This document shows, in pieces, positions 25,590 through 32,690 of a stretch of DNA of 48,649 nucleotides. Source of the stretch: an uncultured Mycoplasmatota bacterium (GTDB lineage Bacteria > Bacillota_I > Bacilli_A > RF39 > UBA660); the NCBI GenBank assembly GCA_946498975.1, contig CAMMQC010000009.1, positions 1-48,649 on the forward strand. The letters are read 5' to 3'. The notes beneath the pieces are model-generated. The model was not told the origin of the DNA. It was given only the letters and a program-made list of their open reading frames with translations, and searched no databases. Position numbers and translations under genes: made by a program. Position 1 is the first letter of the stretch. Each line of letters starts with the position of its first letter.

Positions 25590-25699
25590 AGTCTAAAATC
25601 AATCCTTTCTACTTTTTAAAGTATAACATAATTTTTCATTAAATTATCATATTTTTTACATAATTTTTGTGATATAATCTATTCTAGGTGAGGAAGAAG

Positions 25700-26665
25700 A
25701 TGATAGATAAGCAGTTTAAGAATCTTGAAGAACAAATAGAAATACTTAAATATAAGGGTATGACTATTACAGATGAAGAATATACTAAGAGAATATTGTT
25801 AAGAGAAAATTACTTCTTTATATCTGGTTATAGGTATCCTTTTATGAGAAGTATGACTGATAAACATTTCTTAGATGGGGTTACTTTTGAAGAGATGTAT
25901 AGTTTGTTTCTATTTGATAGAGCGATTAGAAATGTGTTCTTTAAGTATTTACTTGTTATTGAAAATAACTTAAAATCTATATTTTCATATCAGTTATCTA
26001 AGAAATATGGATATAAAGAGAAATATTATTTACGTAATAAGAACTTTACTAGTGATAAGAGTAAACAAAAACAAGTAAATGATTTGATTAAAAAGATGAA
26101 AAGACAAATTAGGATTAATGGAAGTCAACATACAGCGACTGCACATTATATGTCTAATTATGGTTATGTTCCACTTTGGATTTTAGTTAAAGTTTTATCT
26201 TTTGGAATAGTTGGAGAATTATTTTCAATAATGAAATATGATGATCAAGTAAATATTTGTAAGATTTATAATATACCAGTAGATGAGTTTAGTAATTATT
26301 TACCAATACTTTCTAATTATCGTAATTTGTGTGCTCATGAAGATATTTTATATGAAAATAGAACACAGAAGAAAATTAAAGGAACAAAGTTTCATGAATT
26401 ACTTGGTTTAGAAAAAAATAGTGAAGGGTACTATACTAAAGGAACTAATGATTTGTTTGCCCTTCTTATTATAATGAAGAGAATGTTAAGTTATGATGAA
26501 TTTAAAGATATGTGTTTAGAGCTTGATAAAAGAATAGATAATCTTGAATATAATTTGCATAGTATTAAAATAGATAAAATATTAGAAAAAATGGGATTTC
26601 CTAAAAATTATATGGAACTTGCTAATATTGAAAGGAGAGATGTAGATGAGTTCAGAGAGAATTAA
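25700..26665 (+). CDS. Abi_2 (AbiD/AbiF-like) family protein
   Basis: A 321-aa protein of the Abi_2 family, known from phage abortive-infection genes AbiD and AbiF. Family stretches include LLRENYFFISGYRYPF, LFLFDRAIRNVFFKYLLVIENNLKSIFSYQL and the HEPN-type RNase motif RNLCAHEDILY. Members probably cleave RNA upon phage infection. The ATG at 25700 is preferred; AGGTGAGGA (25686-25694) is its ribosome binding site and contains an alternative GTG. The last 20 nt overlap htrA, so the two are coupled. No adjacent small RNA was visible in the ~100-bp upstream gap. Confidence 0.85.
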   Translation: MIDKQFKNLEEQIEILKYKGMTITDEEYTKRILLRENYFFISGYRYPFMRSMTDKHFLDGVTFEEMYSLFLFDRAIRNVFFKYLLVIENNLKSIFSYQLSKKYGYKEKYYLRNKNFTSDKSKQKQVNDLIKKMKRQIRINGSQHTATAHYMSNYGYVPLWILVKVLSFGIVGELFSIMKYDDQVNICKIYNIPVDEFSNYLPILSNYRNLCAHEDILYENRTQKKIKGTKFHELLGLEKNSEGYYTKGTNDLFALLIIMKRMLSYDEFKDMCLELDKRIDNLEYNLHSIKIDKILEKMGFPKNYMELANIERRDVDEFREN

Positions 26666-28807: not shown

Positions 28808-30487
28808 ATGAAGAAAAAAGAAAATATTATAATAATAGTAGTGTTAGTAGTAATGATACTAGCGATAGTAGGAGTAAGTTATGCTGCCTTTAGTTATAGT
28901 AAAACAGGTGGTAAAGTAAACTCTATAACGACAGGTTCTATTACAATGACATATACTGAAACAGATAATACAATAAGTTTAAGTGGAGCCTTACCAACTA
29001 CTGATAAGACAGGAATGGTTAGACTAAATCCAGGAGAGTACTTTGATTTTAGTGTAAGTAGTGAAATAACAGGAGATGTAAATATTAACTATGAGATATC
29101 TGCTAAAAAAGAAGATGGTAATACTATAGATGGTAGATATATAAAGTTATATCTAACTAGATTAACAGATGATGGAGAAGAAGAAGCTTTAATGGTACCT
29201 GAAACATATAATGAGGAGAGTAGTGCTAATGATTATACAGGAAGACCAGTAAATGAGATGAGTTTATATACAAGTAGTATGAACTCTAGTGAATCTAATA
29301 ATTATAGATTAAGAATGTATGTAGATGAGAGTTATAATCCCCAGGGAGATGGAGGAGGATTAACATTTAGTGTAAGAATAAATGTGTATGGAAAAGCAGG
29401 AGATAAGTATGTTCCATTAACTACACAAGAGATACTTGAAGATAATGAGTTACAAGAAGAGAAAACGCAGATGTTTAACTATGCTAGCAATGGTGGCTAT
29501 TTTGATATGAGTGGTGGTAGTCAATCTACTAATCCAGAATATGTAACAAATGGCTTATATAGTACTGAGGATGAAGATGGGACTAGTTATTACTACAGAG
29601 GGAATGTAACAAACAACAATGTACAATTTGGAGAATATCAAAGTGATTATTATGTATATGAGTATAGTAGTAGATATTTCCAAAGTTTAGAGTCTTGTCA
29701 AGAATACAATAGTAGTTGTAGTGAAAGTAATAAAGTAAAACTCGCAAGTGCAGGAGATAAAATGTACTGGAAGATAGTAAGAGTAAATGGAGATGGAAGT
29801 TTAAGACTAATATATAATGGAACAAGTGCAAGTCCAGATAATAGTGATTTAGCACATTCATTTGCAGTAGGAGTAAGTCCATATAATTTAGAGTATAATG
29901 ATCCAAAATACACAGGATATACCTATGATAATGGAACAGATTCATTTATAAAGAAAGAAGTAGATACATGGTATAAAAATACATTAGGAAGTAGTAGTTA
30001 TGATAGTAAAGTAACAGGAGGAAGATTTTGTAGTGATAGTAGTGGATATAAAAAAGACACTGACTATGGTTTTCCTTCTATGAATTATAATGTTTTTGCA
30101 AGTTATGATAGATTAGGACAATCAGCAACAGGATATACAAAAGAAAATAGTCCAACTTTGAAGTGTCCTGTTACAAGTGAAAGTTATGGGGGAAGTTATA
30201 GATTAAAAGCAGGACTAATAACGGCAGATGAATTAGTTTTAGGAGGAGAAAATCTTGGAGTAACAACAGATAGTTATTTAAATCCTGGGGATTCTGAAAT
30301 GTATTATTGGAGTATGACGCCGGCCGCTTTCGATTTTGGTCTTGCTGTTGTATGGTGTGAGTTTGATGTCCTCAACCGCGACTATGTGGATTGCAACTAT
30401 GCCGTCCGTCCAGTTATCAATGTGACCACTGAAAACGGGTTTACGTCTGGAGATGGGACTGCTAGTAGTCCATATACAATTTTTTAG
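28808..30487 (+). CDS. DGR target: secreted protein with C-terminal hypervariable domain
   Basis: A 559-aa protein. An N-terminal signal/anchor (MKKKENIIIIVVLVVMILAI) followed by SYAAFSYSKTGG resembles SipW/TasA-type surface proteins; an Ig/TasA-like beta domain extends to about 195. A linker with Ser/Tyr/Asn-rich sequence precedes a C-terminal domain (about 280-555) with the C-type-lectin-like pattern MYWKIVRVNGDGSLRLIY, then YYWSMTPA and VRPVINVTT. Residues about 504-535 are encoded by the variable repeat. Exposed Cys, Phe, Tyr, Asp and Arg residues there replace template Asn codons. AAGGAGAG precedes the ATG. It is probably a cell-surface binding protein whose ligand specificity is diversified. 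Confidence 0.9.
   Translation: MKKKENIIIIVVLVVMILAIVGVSYAAFSYSKTGGKVNSITTGSITMTYTETDNTISLSGALPTTDKTGMVRLNPGEYFDFSVSSEITGDVNINYEISAKKEDGNTIDGRYIKLYLTRLTDDGEEEALMVPETYNEESSANDYTGRPVNEMSLYTSSMNSSESNNYRLRMYVDESYNPQGDGGGLTFSVRINVYGKAGDKYVPLTTQEILEDNELQEEKTQMFNYASNGGYFDMSGGSQSTNPEYVTNGLYSTEDEDGTSYYYRGNVTNNNVQFGEYQSDYYVYEYSSRYFQSLESCQEYNSSCSESNKVKLASAGDKMYWKIVRVNGDGSLRLIYNGTSASPDNSDLAHSFAVGVSPYNLEYNDPKYTGYTYDNGTDSFIKKEVDTWYKNTLGSSSYDSKVTGGRFCSDSSGYKKDTDYGFPSMNYNVFASYDRLGQSATGYTKENSPTLKCPVTSESYGGSYRLKAGLITADELVLGGENLGVTTDSYLNPGDSEMYYWSMTPAAFDFGLAVVWCEFDVLNRDYVDCNYAVRPVINVTTENGFTSGDGTASSPYTIF
30318..30413 (+). repeat. DGR variable region (VR)
   Basis: This 96-bp segment aligns without gaps to the template repeat 281 bp downstream. 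All 22 differences fall on adenines of the template; no other base differs. Template Asn codons become D, F, L, V, C, F, V, N, R, D, Y, C, N and Y in order, one template Asp becomes Ala, and a Val codon changes silently. The unmutated 3' end (GCCGTCCGTCCAG) is GC-rich, as expected of the initiation-of-mutagenic-homing site. Confidence 0.97.
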
Positions 30488-30495
30488 GTAGAATT

Positions 30496-30519
30496 AGGCA
30501 AATGACTCCTCATTTGCCT
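30496..30519 (+). promoter_or_regulatory. Hairpin downstream of VR
   Basis: AGGCAAATGA pairs perfectly with TCATTTGCCT across the 4-nt loop CTCC, 82 bp after VR and just past the target stop. Short-loop hairpins or cruciforms at this place aid target recognition in characterised DGRs; it may also act as a weak terminator, although no T-run follows. Confidence 0.75.
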
Positions 30520-30598
30520 CGGGGATTAAACTGTAAGTGACGTGCTCTTTCTTTGGTGTTACCCTTTCTTTTGTGGCTACTTTTTCGTCTTTTTGGTT

Positions 30599-30694
30599 CG
30601 CCGGCCGATTTCAATAATGGTAATGCTAATGTATGGAATGAGAATGATAACCTCAACAACAACAATGTAGATAACAACAATGCCGTCCGTCCAG
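30599..30694 (+). repeat. DGR template repeat (TR)
   Basis: A non-coding 96-bp template for adenine-directed mutagenesis. Read in the VR frame it has 14 Asn codons (AAT/AAC), the codon that gives the widest amino-acid range without stops when A is randomised. It begins CGCCGGCCGATTTC and ends CCGTCCGTCCAG. It lies between target and accessory genes, in the same orientation as the reverse transcriptase. Confidence 0.97.
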
Positions 30695-30878
30695 ATTCCT
30701 ACTAAGGCTAGAAATTAATCTAGTGTCACCGAGTTTTGTTGGTTAAGGCTTGCAAACAGAGGAAGTTTGAATGGAAACAAGTTTAATTCCCAGGGCTTGC
30801 CCTAAATATATAATATAGATGTCTTTGAACTTAGAATAAAGTTCAAAGACTATCCCTATATTGATAAATTAATTATTG
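30695..30878 (+). ncRNA. DGR template-RNA 3' spacer with hairpin
   Basis: No gene fits here. A perfect 12-bp stem (GTCTTTGAACTT at 30821-30832 with 30839-30850) is extended by an outer ATATAG/CTATAT helix across an internal loop. GGCTTGC elements flank it upstream. By analogy with phage DGRs, where a spacer downstream of TR is needed for cDNA priming, this is probably the structured 3' part of the template RNA. The ends are not determined. Confidence 0.5.
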
Positions 30879-30915
30879 AGAAGTAGTATGTTTTTTCGTA
30901 TTACTTCTTTTTTTA
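30879..30915 (+). terminator. Terminator between template RNA and accessory genes
   Basis: AGAAGTAGTA pairs with TATTACTTCT (one mismatch) around a T-rich loop, followed by seven T. It would end the template RNA and limit read-through into the accessory genes. Confidence 0.75.
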
Positions 30916-30924
30916 GGAGTTATT

Positions 30925-31260
30925 ATGAAGAAAAGAACACCTTTAAATAAATATAGATATTATAAAAAAGATTATGCTAAATATTTATTACTTATTAAAA
31001 ATAAAGATAAACTTATAACTTTTGGTATTGATGCTAAGATAGTGGCATATCTTTTTAAAATAAAATATTGTGATGAAATTATACTTGATAAATCTCTATT
31101 AGATGATTTGTTAGTACTTAAAGAAAAGTATCACTTTAATATAGCAGTAGTTGGTCCTAAGATAAGAGAATATTACTGTAGTAAATGTAGTGATTACTTA
31201 AAATTAAAAAATAAAAGTAAGAAATATATTAAGGAGTGTTGCAGTTATGGAGAAGAATGA
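30925..31260 (+). CDS. DGR accessory protein with MutS domain-I-like fold (Msl-like)
   Basis: A 111-aa protein. LLLIKNKDKLITFGIDAKIVAYLFKI lines up with the mismatch-recognition domain I of MutS (pattern LLFRVGDFYETFGEDAKIAA), but the Phe-x-Glu mismatch-reading motif is not kept (KLITFG). Small MutS-like proteins are known DGR accessories. The rest of MutS is absent. A C-terminal Cys-rich, basic tail (YYCSKCSDYL...KECCSYGEE) could bind metal or nucleic acid. AGGAG precedes the ATG, and it overlaps avd by 14 nt. A role in tolerating or choosing mismatched cDNA is inference. Confidence 0.6.
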   Translation: MKKRTPLNKYRYYKKDYAKYLLLIKNKDKLITFGIDAKIVAYLFKIKYCDEIILDKSLLDDLLVLKEKYHFNIAVVGPKIREYYCSKCSDYLKLKNKSKKYIKECCSYGEE

Positions 31261-31606
31261 TTCATTTAAAATAATGAAAAATACTAAAGAATTAGTTAGT
31301 GATGTAGTAGAGTTTTCAAGAAATTTTCCTAAAAGTGAAAGTGTTTTGAAAAAGAATTTGCAAGATGAGTTATTTAATTTAGTTAGATTATTAAATTCAT
31401 ATATTGTTAATAGAGATAGTAGTAGAATAAGAGAGAAACATATAAAAGATTTTATAGTTAGCCTTTCGATGGTAGATTTTTATTTTGAATATTTATACTT
31501 AAATAAAATAATTAGTTTTAAGAAATATAAAGATTTAGTTGGTTATGTAGTTACTATTAGAAAGCTTGCTTATGGAGTATTAAAAAATGAAAAAGAGTTA
31601 TGTTAG
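31247..31606 (+). CDS. avd: DGR accessory variability determinant (Avd)
   Basis: A 119-aa four-helix-bundle protein of the Avd/S23 type. Basic, positively charged helices and the C-terminal signature VVTIRKLAYGVLKNEK match bAvd proteins, which form a pentameric barrel that binds the reverse transcriptase and template RNA. It overlaps both neighbouring genes, so msl-like, avd and rt are translationally coupled. Confidence 0.87.
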   Translation: MEKNDSFKIMKNTKELVSDVVEFSRNFPKSESVLKKNLQDELFNLVRLLNSYIVNRDSSRIREKHIKDFIVSLSMVDFYFEYLYLNKIISFKKYKDLVGYVVTIRKLAYGVLKNEKELC

Positions 31607-32690
31607 TTATGATACGTTAGTTGATTATAATAAAATACTTGATAGTTATAGACTTGTAGTTAAGAATACAGAACATAAAGAGAAATTATTTAAGTATAAC
31701 TTGTTTTTATCTAGTAATTTAGTTAGTATTTATAATTCTTTAAAAGACTTTAAATATCATCATGGTAAATATAATATCTTTTTAATAAAAGATCCTAAAT
31801 ATAGGGTTATTATGAGTGAGAATTTAACTGATAAAATAGTTAATCAAATGGTTAGTGAATATATATTAAAGCCCATCTTAGAACCTAAGCTTATAGATAG
31901 TAATGTTGCAACTAGAGTTGGTATGGGTAGTAGTTATGCTTTTAATCTTTGTAAGAAGTATATTAATAACTTAAAAAGAAAAGGGAAAGAAGTATATGTC
32001 CTTAAGTTTGATATAAAGAAATACTTTTATAATATAGATCATGATATATTAATAGAAAGGTTAGATAAAATATATGAAGATAAGAGAATAGTTTCTTTAC
32101 TTAAAGATATTATTTATAGTTCTAATATGGGGTATGTTAATAGGGAAATAGATAATATTATAAATAGAGAACTAAGAAAAGATTTATCTATTAAGCATGA
32201 GAGTGAACTTAAGAAGGTTCCTAGATATAATTATCATAAAGGACTTGCTATTGGTAATGTTACTAGTCAGATTTTGGCAATATTTTATTTAAATAGAATA
32301 GATCATTTAATAAAAGAGAAACTTGGATGTAAATATTATATAAGATATATGGATGATGGAGTTATCTTTGATTATGATAAAGAGAGATTAAAATATATTA
32401 AGAGTGTTATTGAAAAAGAGCTTGTTAAAGAAAAGTTAGAGCTTAATAAGAAAACTAATATATATAATTTAAGTAGTGGTTTTACTTTTATAGGATATAG
32501 ATTTATTTTAAGAAATAATAAGCTTATTATTAGAATAAATAATAAAGTAAAGGCAAGGATTAAAAGAAAGATAAAATACTTAAGTATTTATGATAAAGAT
32601 AAGTTAGTGAGAGTTAAAGCTAGTTATTATGGTTATATGAAGAGAGCTTCTACTAATTATTTACAATATAAATTTAAGATAAAATCTTAA
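31587..32690 (+). CDS. DGR reverse transcriptase
   Basis: A 367-aa reverse transcriptase. Catalytic Asp in FDIKKYFYNIDHDIL (about 141-154) and YMDD at 254-257 are present. The DGR-specific motif 4 variant AIGNVTSQ (about 221-228) replaces the QG motif of group II intron and retroviral enzymes; this is linked to low fidelity opposite template adenine. Motifs VLKFDIKKYFYNIDH and GFTFIGYRF are in order. No maturase or endonuclease domain follows, as usual for DGRs. The last 17 bp overlap the convergent Crp/Fnr gene. Confidence 0.97.
   Translation: MKKSYVSYDTLVDYNKILDSYRLVVKNTEHKEKLFKYNLFLSSNLVSIYNSLKDFKYHHGKYNIFLIKDPKYRVIMSENLTDKIVNQMVSEYILKPILEPKLIDSNVATRVGMGSSYAFNLCKKYINNLKRKGKEVYVLKFDIKKYFYNIDHDILIERLDKIYEDKRIVSLLKDIIYSSNMGYVNREIDNIINRELRKDLSIKHESELKKVPRYNYHKGLAIGNVTSQILAIFYLNRIDHLIKEKLGCKYYIRYMDDGVIFDYDKERLKYIKSVIEKELVKEKLELNKKTNIYNLSSGFTFIGYRFILRNNKLIIRINNKVKARIKRKIKYLSIYDKDKLVRVKASYYGYMKRASTNYLQYKFKIKS

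Follow-up and report, generated by a model that had tools for sequence, protein, structure and literature searches.

The catalytic YMDD codons of the reverse transcriptase (RT) of a diversity-generating retroelement (DGR) appear to be the homing site (YMD^D) of a specialised clade of group II introns. The DGR in which we discuss this site is located in an uncultured Mycoplasmatota bacterium (GCA_946498975.1); it is intact and chromosomal, and it serves three variable repeats (VRs), each followed by a hairpin. We consider this combined reading very likely. Among natural systems for targeted hypermutation, DGRs are the best known. In the model that we propose, the RT together with Avd would reverse-transcribe the RNA of one template repeat (TR) and misread its adenines, and the cDNA would take the place of the VR in three exported proteins that are paralogues of one another, acting in cis on one and in trans on the other two, i.e., by RT-dependent mutagenic retrohoming. 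The hairpin downstream of each VR probably marks it as the target. The intron clade would recognise TGGATG at YMD^D through EBS1–IBS1 pairing, spread between unrelated DGRs and splice out, thereby restoring YMDD. DGRs as such, multiple VRs and the target hairpin are already known (PMC3521204, PMC3240598). Unless labelled otherwise, coordinates refer to the window, the 48,649-nt contig CAMMQC010000009.1. The two VRs in trans, the link between the hairpin and all VRs, and the group II intron become visible only beyond it.

The order on the + strand is target gene with the VR near its end, hairpin, TR, small gene, avd and RT. The VR (30318–30413) and the TR (30599–30694) align without gaps over 96 nt, as an earlier note on this DNA had claimed, and the homology stops abruptly on both sides; the pair is also the top-ranked family in a repeat finder. 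The further claims of the note concerning the repeats were borne out as well. All 22 differences are positioned at TR adenines, of which there are 35 (hypergeometric p = 5.5e-13), and the changes are broad: A>T 11, A>G 8 and A>C 3. Read in the frame of the target, the TR gives PADFNNGNANVWNENDNLNNNNVDNNNAVRP, with 14 Asn codons, and 21 of the 22 changes in the VR affect the first or second position of a codon. The GC-rich 3′ end is unchanged, i.e., VR and TR agree in all of their final 14 nt, TGCCGTCCGTCCAG (VR positions 30400–30413), and this invariant stretch is IMH-like. Between the TR and the next gene, at 30821–30909, two strong inverted repeats were both called terminator-like, one on each strand; possibly they contribute to the structure at the 3′ end of the TR RNA.

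The RT gene (31587–32690, + strand, 367 aa) matches RVT_1 and the PHROG RT family (E 7e-75). It carries YMDD and IGNVTSQ, the latter conforming to the (I/V/L)GxxxSQ motif used as a criterion for DGR RTs (PMC3521204). By sequence, its closest solved relative is the BPP-1 DGR RT (PDB 8ub7), which ranks ahead of group II intron RTs, although the E value of 5e-24 places the two RTs at a considerable distance. The upstream avd gene (accessory variability determinant; 31247–31606, + strand, 119 aa) is recognised by the PHROG Avd family (E 7.5e-10), while the Pfam bAvd match (E 3.3e-7) is below the cut-off. Upstream of avd, a small gene (30925–31260, + strand, 111 aa) very weakly resembles MutS domain I (Pfam MutS_I, E 0.022). 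The same resemblance is seen in several of these DGRs, with E 0.0017 and 0.0006 for the position-equivalent genes at L097:208-576 and L186:1745-2323, and all matches are below the cut-off. Possibly this small gene is an accessory gene of the DGR.

The neighbouring genes that were examined are cellular (a trypsin-like protease with a PDZ domain and an anaerobic ribonucleotide reductase), and the best match of the window RT among phage records is 32% identical. Judging from the window, the DGR is therefore chromosomal. A gene that matches the Abi_2 abortive-infection family (E 1.5e-41) is located at 25688–26665, upstream of the DGR by a few genes.

The target gene (28808–30487, + strand), identified by its open reading frame and translation, encodes 559 aa with the VR near the C-terminus. 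The earlier note had ascribed to it a SipW/TasA-like export signal and a lectin-like C-terminus. Export is plausible, judging from the hydrophobic N-terminus, which ends in GVSYAAF, and from three matches above cut-off to SipW-family signal peptidases in the genome; the SipW/TasA part of the claim was not confirmed, as the NCBIfam SipW and TasA models gave no match to the target even at E 10. Nor could a lectin-like C-terminus be confirmed: a Pfam search of the target returned no domain, lectin fold included, and the AlphaFold2 model is of low confidence (mean pLDDT 38). The protein may be exposed at the surface and involved in binding.

The earlier note had suggested using the TR to find further VRs, and a search of the genome with an adenine-masked pattern yielded two more, on other contigs. 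The VR at C19:30780-30875 differs from the TR by 16 adenine changes and 1 other (16/17 at adenines), and that at C15:34149-34244 by 16 and 2 others (16/18). The reversed pattern returned no VRs in the same genome. To avoid circularity, the scaffold of the target was also used as a query with the VR left out; across the whole genome this search gave exactly three genes, the same three that carry a VR. Thus, three paralogous target genes, each on a different contig, carry one VR each, and all three VRs draw on the same TR; alignment of the target proteins reveals the VR as a hypervariable island within a highly conserved scaffold. Up to three additional VRs per DGR have been reported in the DiGReF set (PMC3521204). 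As in the DGRs with multiple or remote VRs in that set, several target genes here share one template; unlike there, all targets in the genome have been enumerated by a VR-free search and the same marker hairpin is present at each. The same genome harbours a second, divergent DGR on contig C33 (L013:148-4188), with an RT about 43% identical. Its target has two VR-like 125-nt repeats and a DUF6273 match, the TR copy is at 1998-2122 of L013, and the contig breaks off within another group II intron, of which it retains the 5′ end (GTGCGACTGGGTAGG).

The hairpin of the target gene in the window, AGGCAAATGA-CTCC-TCATTTGCCT (30496–30519, + strand), is positioned 3′ of the VR. Its core, AAATGA-CTCY-TCATTT, is perfect, with an invariant inner stem and a near-invariant loop. 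The 1.5-Mb genome contains exactly three copies of the core, one beside each VR (86, 86 and 149 nt past the repeat) and none at the TR. Among 12 distinct homologues the outer stem covaries, with 7 pairs changed on both sides; the covariation score of 0.382 compares with a shuffled mean of 0.093 and was reached in 0 of 500 shuffles. The 55 matches to the core in IMG/VR correspond approximately to a rough chance expectation for a 16-base pattern. Homing of BPP-1 requires a hairpin or cruciform with a 7–10 bp stem and a GRNA loop at 4–34 bp from the VR (PMC3240598). The BPP-1 DGR (bRT, Avd, mtd) shares with ours the RT, Avd, the adenine-specific TR/VR changes, the GC-rich VR 3′ end and a hairpin with a 4-nt loop downstream of the VR. 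However, the loop in our case is CTCY, the distance is larger, and one TR of a chromosomal DGR serves three VRs on different contigs.

These features suggest that the downstream hairpin probably marks each VR as a DGR target. Alternatively, the hairpin could serve the target gene itself, as a transcription terminator or in some other capacity, without marking a target for the DGR. Its position directly after the target stop codon would fit such a role. However, a terminator is rejected, as the hairpin is not followed by a T-run and the terminator scan makes no call. The genomic distribution of the core also speaks against an unrelated element, as does the retention of inner stem and loop, with a covarying outer stem, in divergent DGRs (L054, L096). 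We regard this alternative as unlikely.

The YMDD codons of the window RT, TATATGGATGAT, span 32346–32357, and between 32355 and 32356 they contain a group II intron site (TATATGGATG^AT) that is unoccupied here. The same position is filled in ten loci of related uncultured Bacilli, found by scanning 84,980 species genomes together with searches of the genus and the family; all introns interrupt the RT at YMD^D. Six loci carry complete introns (L093, L094, L095, L097, L098 and L099), and the others are partial: the intron at L096 is cut in D5 by the contig end, L186 retains a 5′ end, and C11 and G013 retain 3′ ends. The loci are spread over at least three genera. The junction pattern had 3 matches, in 3 genera, among 291 genomes of the family, and none in an even sample of 395 genomes of the class or in IMG/VR. 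C11 belongs to the same genome as the window. Here (L014:1-505), an RT fragment that is 98% identical in DNA to the window RT starts inside YMDD and is preceded by domain V of a group II intron, i.e., its 3′ end; the 5′ half is missing. Downstream of the 3′ half of the RT, this contig carries a T-box leader and a gene resembling that of valyl-tRNA synthetase. All of the intron-bearing genomes are MAGs. We rejected the possibility that the introns are assembly artefacts, as the six complete copies are located inside contigs of different MAGs.

The complete introns have the junctions TATATGGATG | GTGCGACTGTGTAGG...TTTCTACTCGAT | ATGG and are about 1.9 kb long. Their ends, GTGCGAC...CTCGAT, agree with the 5′ GTGYG and 3′ AY that, together with domains D1–D6, characterise group II introns, and Rfam models match D1–D4 and D5. 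The introns encode an RT/maturase of 439 aa (TIGR04416, 333.6 bits; curated cut-off 300). Joining the exons yields an uninterrupted RT with YMDD restored in 5 of the 6 complete copies, and on the basis of these restored reading frames we expect that the introns splice in vivo. In the sixth, L095, a TA repeat in exon 2 shifts the frame, and the maturase of L097 has an internal stop within the matched stretch; hence, not every copy is functional. At L037:2455-2773 (G012), exon 2 of the intron-split RT contains a TA repeat whose expansion shifts the frame; this could reflect decay, a tract subject to phase variation or an error in the sequence. That the interrupted genes are DGR RTs follows from what is beside them, i.e., TR/VR pairs with adenine-type differences at L093, L094, L095, L096, L099 and L186, and Avd-like genes at L097 and L098. 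Contig C8 of the genome that contains the window (L017:6461-9024) carries a further group II intron, which belongs to a different class (Rfam D1D4-5) and has an RT of 475 aa.

To understand how the site is recognised, the first 480 bases of the introns were scanned blindly against exon segments, with permutation testing. The best co-varying complement pairs intron nt 187–192 with exon positions -6 to -1 (43/48), and 0 of 120 permutations reached its score. This EBS1 reads CGTCCA or CATCCA in all seven YMDD introns and pairs 6/6 with TGGATG. Sister introns, with IEPs 59–64% identical, pair with their own, different sites, e.g., in a nadD-like gene or in intergenic sequence. The YADD codons of the intron itself pair with EBS1 at just 4/6 positions, so the intron can distinguish the YMDD of a DGR from its own. 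The YMDD-site introns form one clade, with support of 100/100 without distant rows and 92/90 with them. With strong confidence, we suggest that this intron lineage is a specialist for the codons of the catalytic aspartate in DGR RTs.

That the YMDD introns form one clade, and that the second exon of L095 is frameshifted, would also be expected if they were ordinary insertions that inactivate the host DGR RTs and whose common site was inherited from a single ancient event. The degree of identity argues otherwise. The introns at L094 and L095 are 99.1% identical in RTs that are 34% identical, and those at L098 and L099 are 99.7% identical in RTs that are 89% identical. Near-identical introns in such different RTs (L094/L095) mean that the intron moves between DGR lineages, and both comparisons indicate that it has moved recently; descent alone was rejected on these grounds. 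Moreover, EBS1 fits the insertion site, the joined exons are open in most complete copies, and the adjoining TR/VR pairs are intact. Old, inactivating insertions are thus quite improbable, and specialised homing to YMD^D is the reading that we retain.

Group II introns can be nested within one another, as in the known twintrons of Thermosynechococcus elongatus and Methanosarcina acetivorans (PMC2882425, PMC4424553). Like twintrons, the introns discussed here home into the genes or sequences of other retroelements; the host, however, is not a group II intron but the RT gene of a DGR, which is interrupted at its catalytic YMDD codons in several unrelated lineages. Group II introns also interrupt conserved genes, e.g., in phages (PMC12350094). 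Both cases involve a mobile intron that lands in a coding sequence under strong conservation, while the host gene here is the RT of a hypermutation system. A search of the open-access literature gave no account of a group II intron within the RT gene of a DGR.

Is the DGR in use? Within the genus, the TR/VR family is present in 19 of 35 genomes, with zero matches for the reversed-pattern control, and a 36-nt core of the TR is letter-identical across several species, while the VRs all differ. A constant TR core combined with differing VRs, and a variable island in a conserved scaffold, suggest that the element is probably in use at present. The description of the DGR as active-looking in the earlier note thus holds in the sense that it looks functional, with all of the expected parts and a hypervariable VR. 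Although broken RT copies occur in related MAGs (G018, L095), it is very improbable that the DGR is a relic, whose VRs record past diversification by an element that no longer works in the species, given that RT, Avd, TR and hairpin are intact in the window, the TR core is constant across species while the VRs differ, and compensatory changes maintain the hairpin.

With three targets, one template and one hairpin per target, the rule by which targets in trans are chosen becomes directly testable in this system. Annotation pipelines will miss or truncate DGR RTs that are split by an intron. In the YMDD introns, one retroelement has made its home in the codons for the active site of another, and it passes from one unrelated lineage of its host element to the next. 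As a tentative and rather unlikely extension, in which the gating is the speculative step, the spread of YMDD-specialised introns among unrelated DGRs of gut Bacilli might make targeted hypermutation conditional on splicing. In this context, the filled and empty sites in related species offer naturally occurring alleles with which one can ask if hypermutation is limited by splicing.
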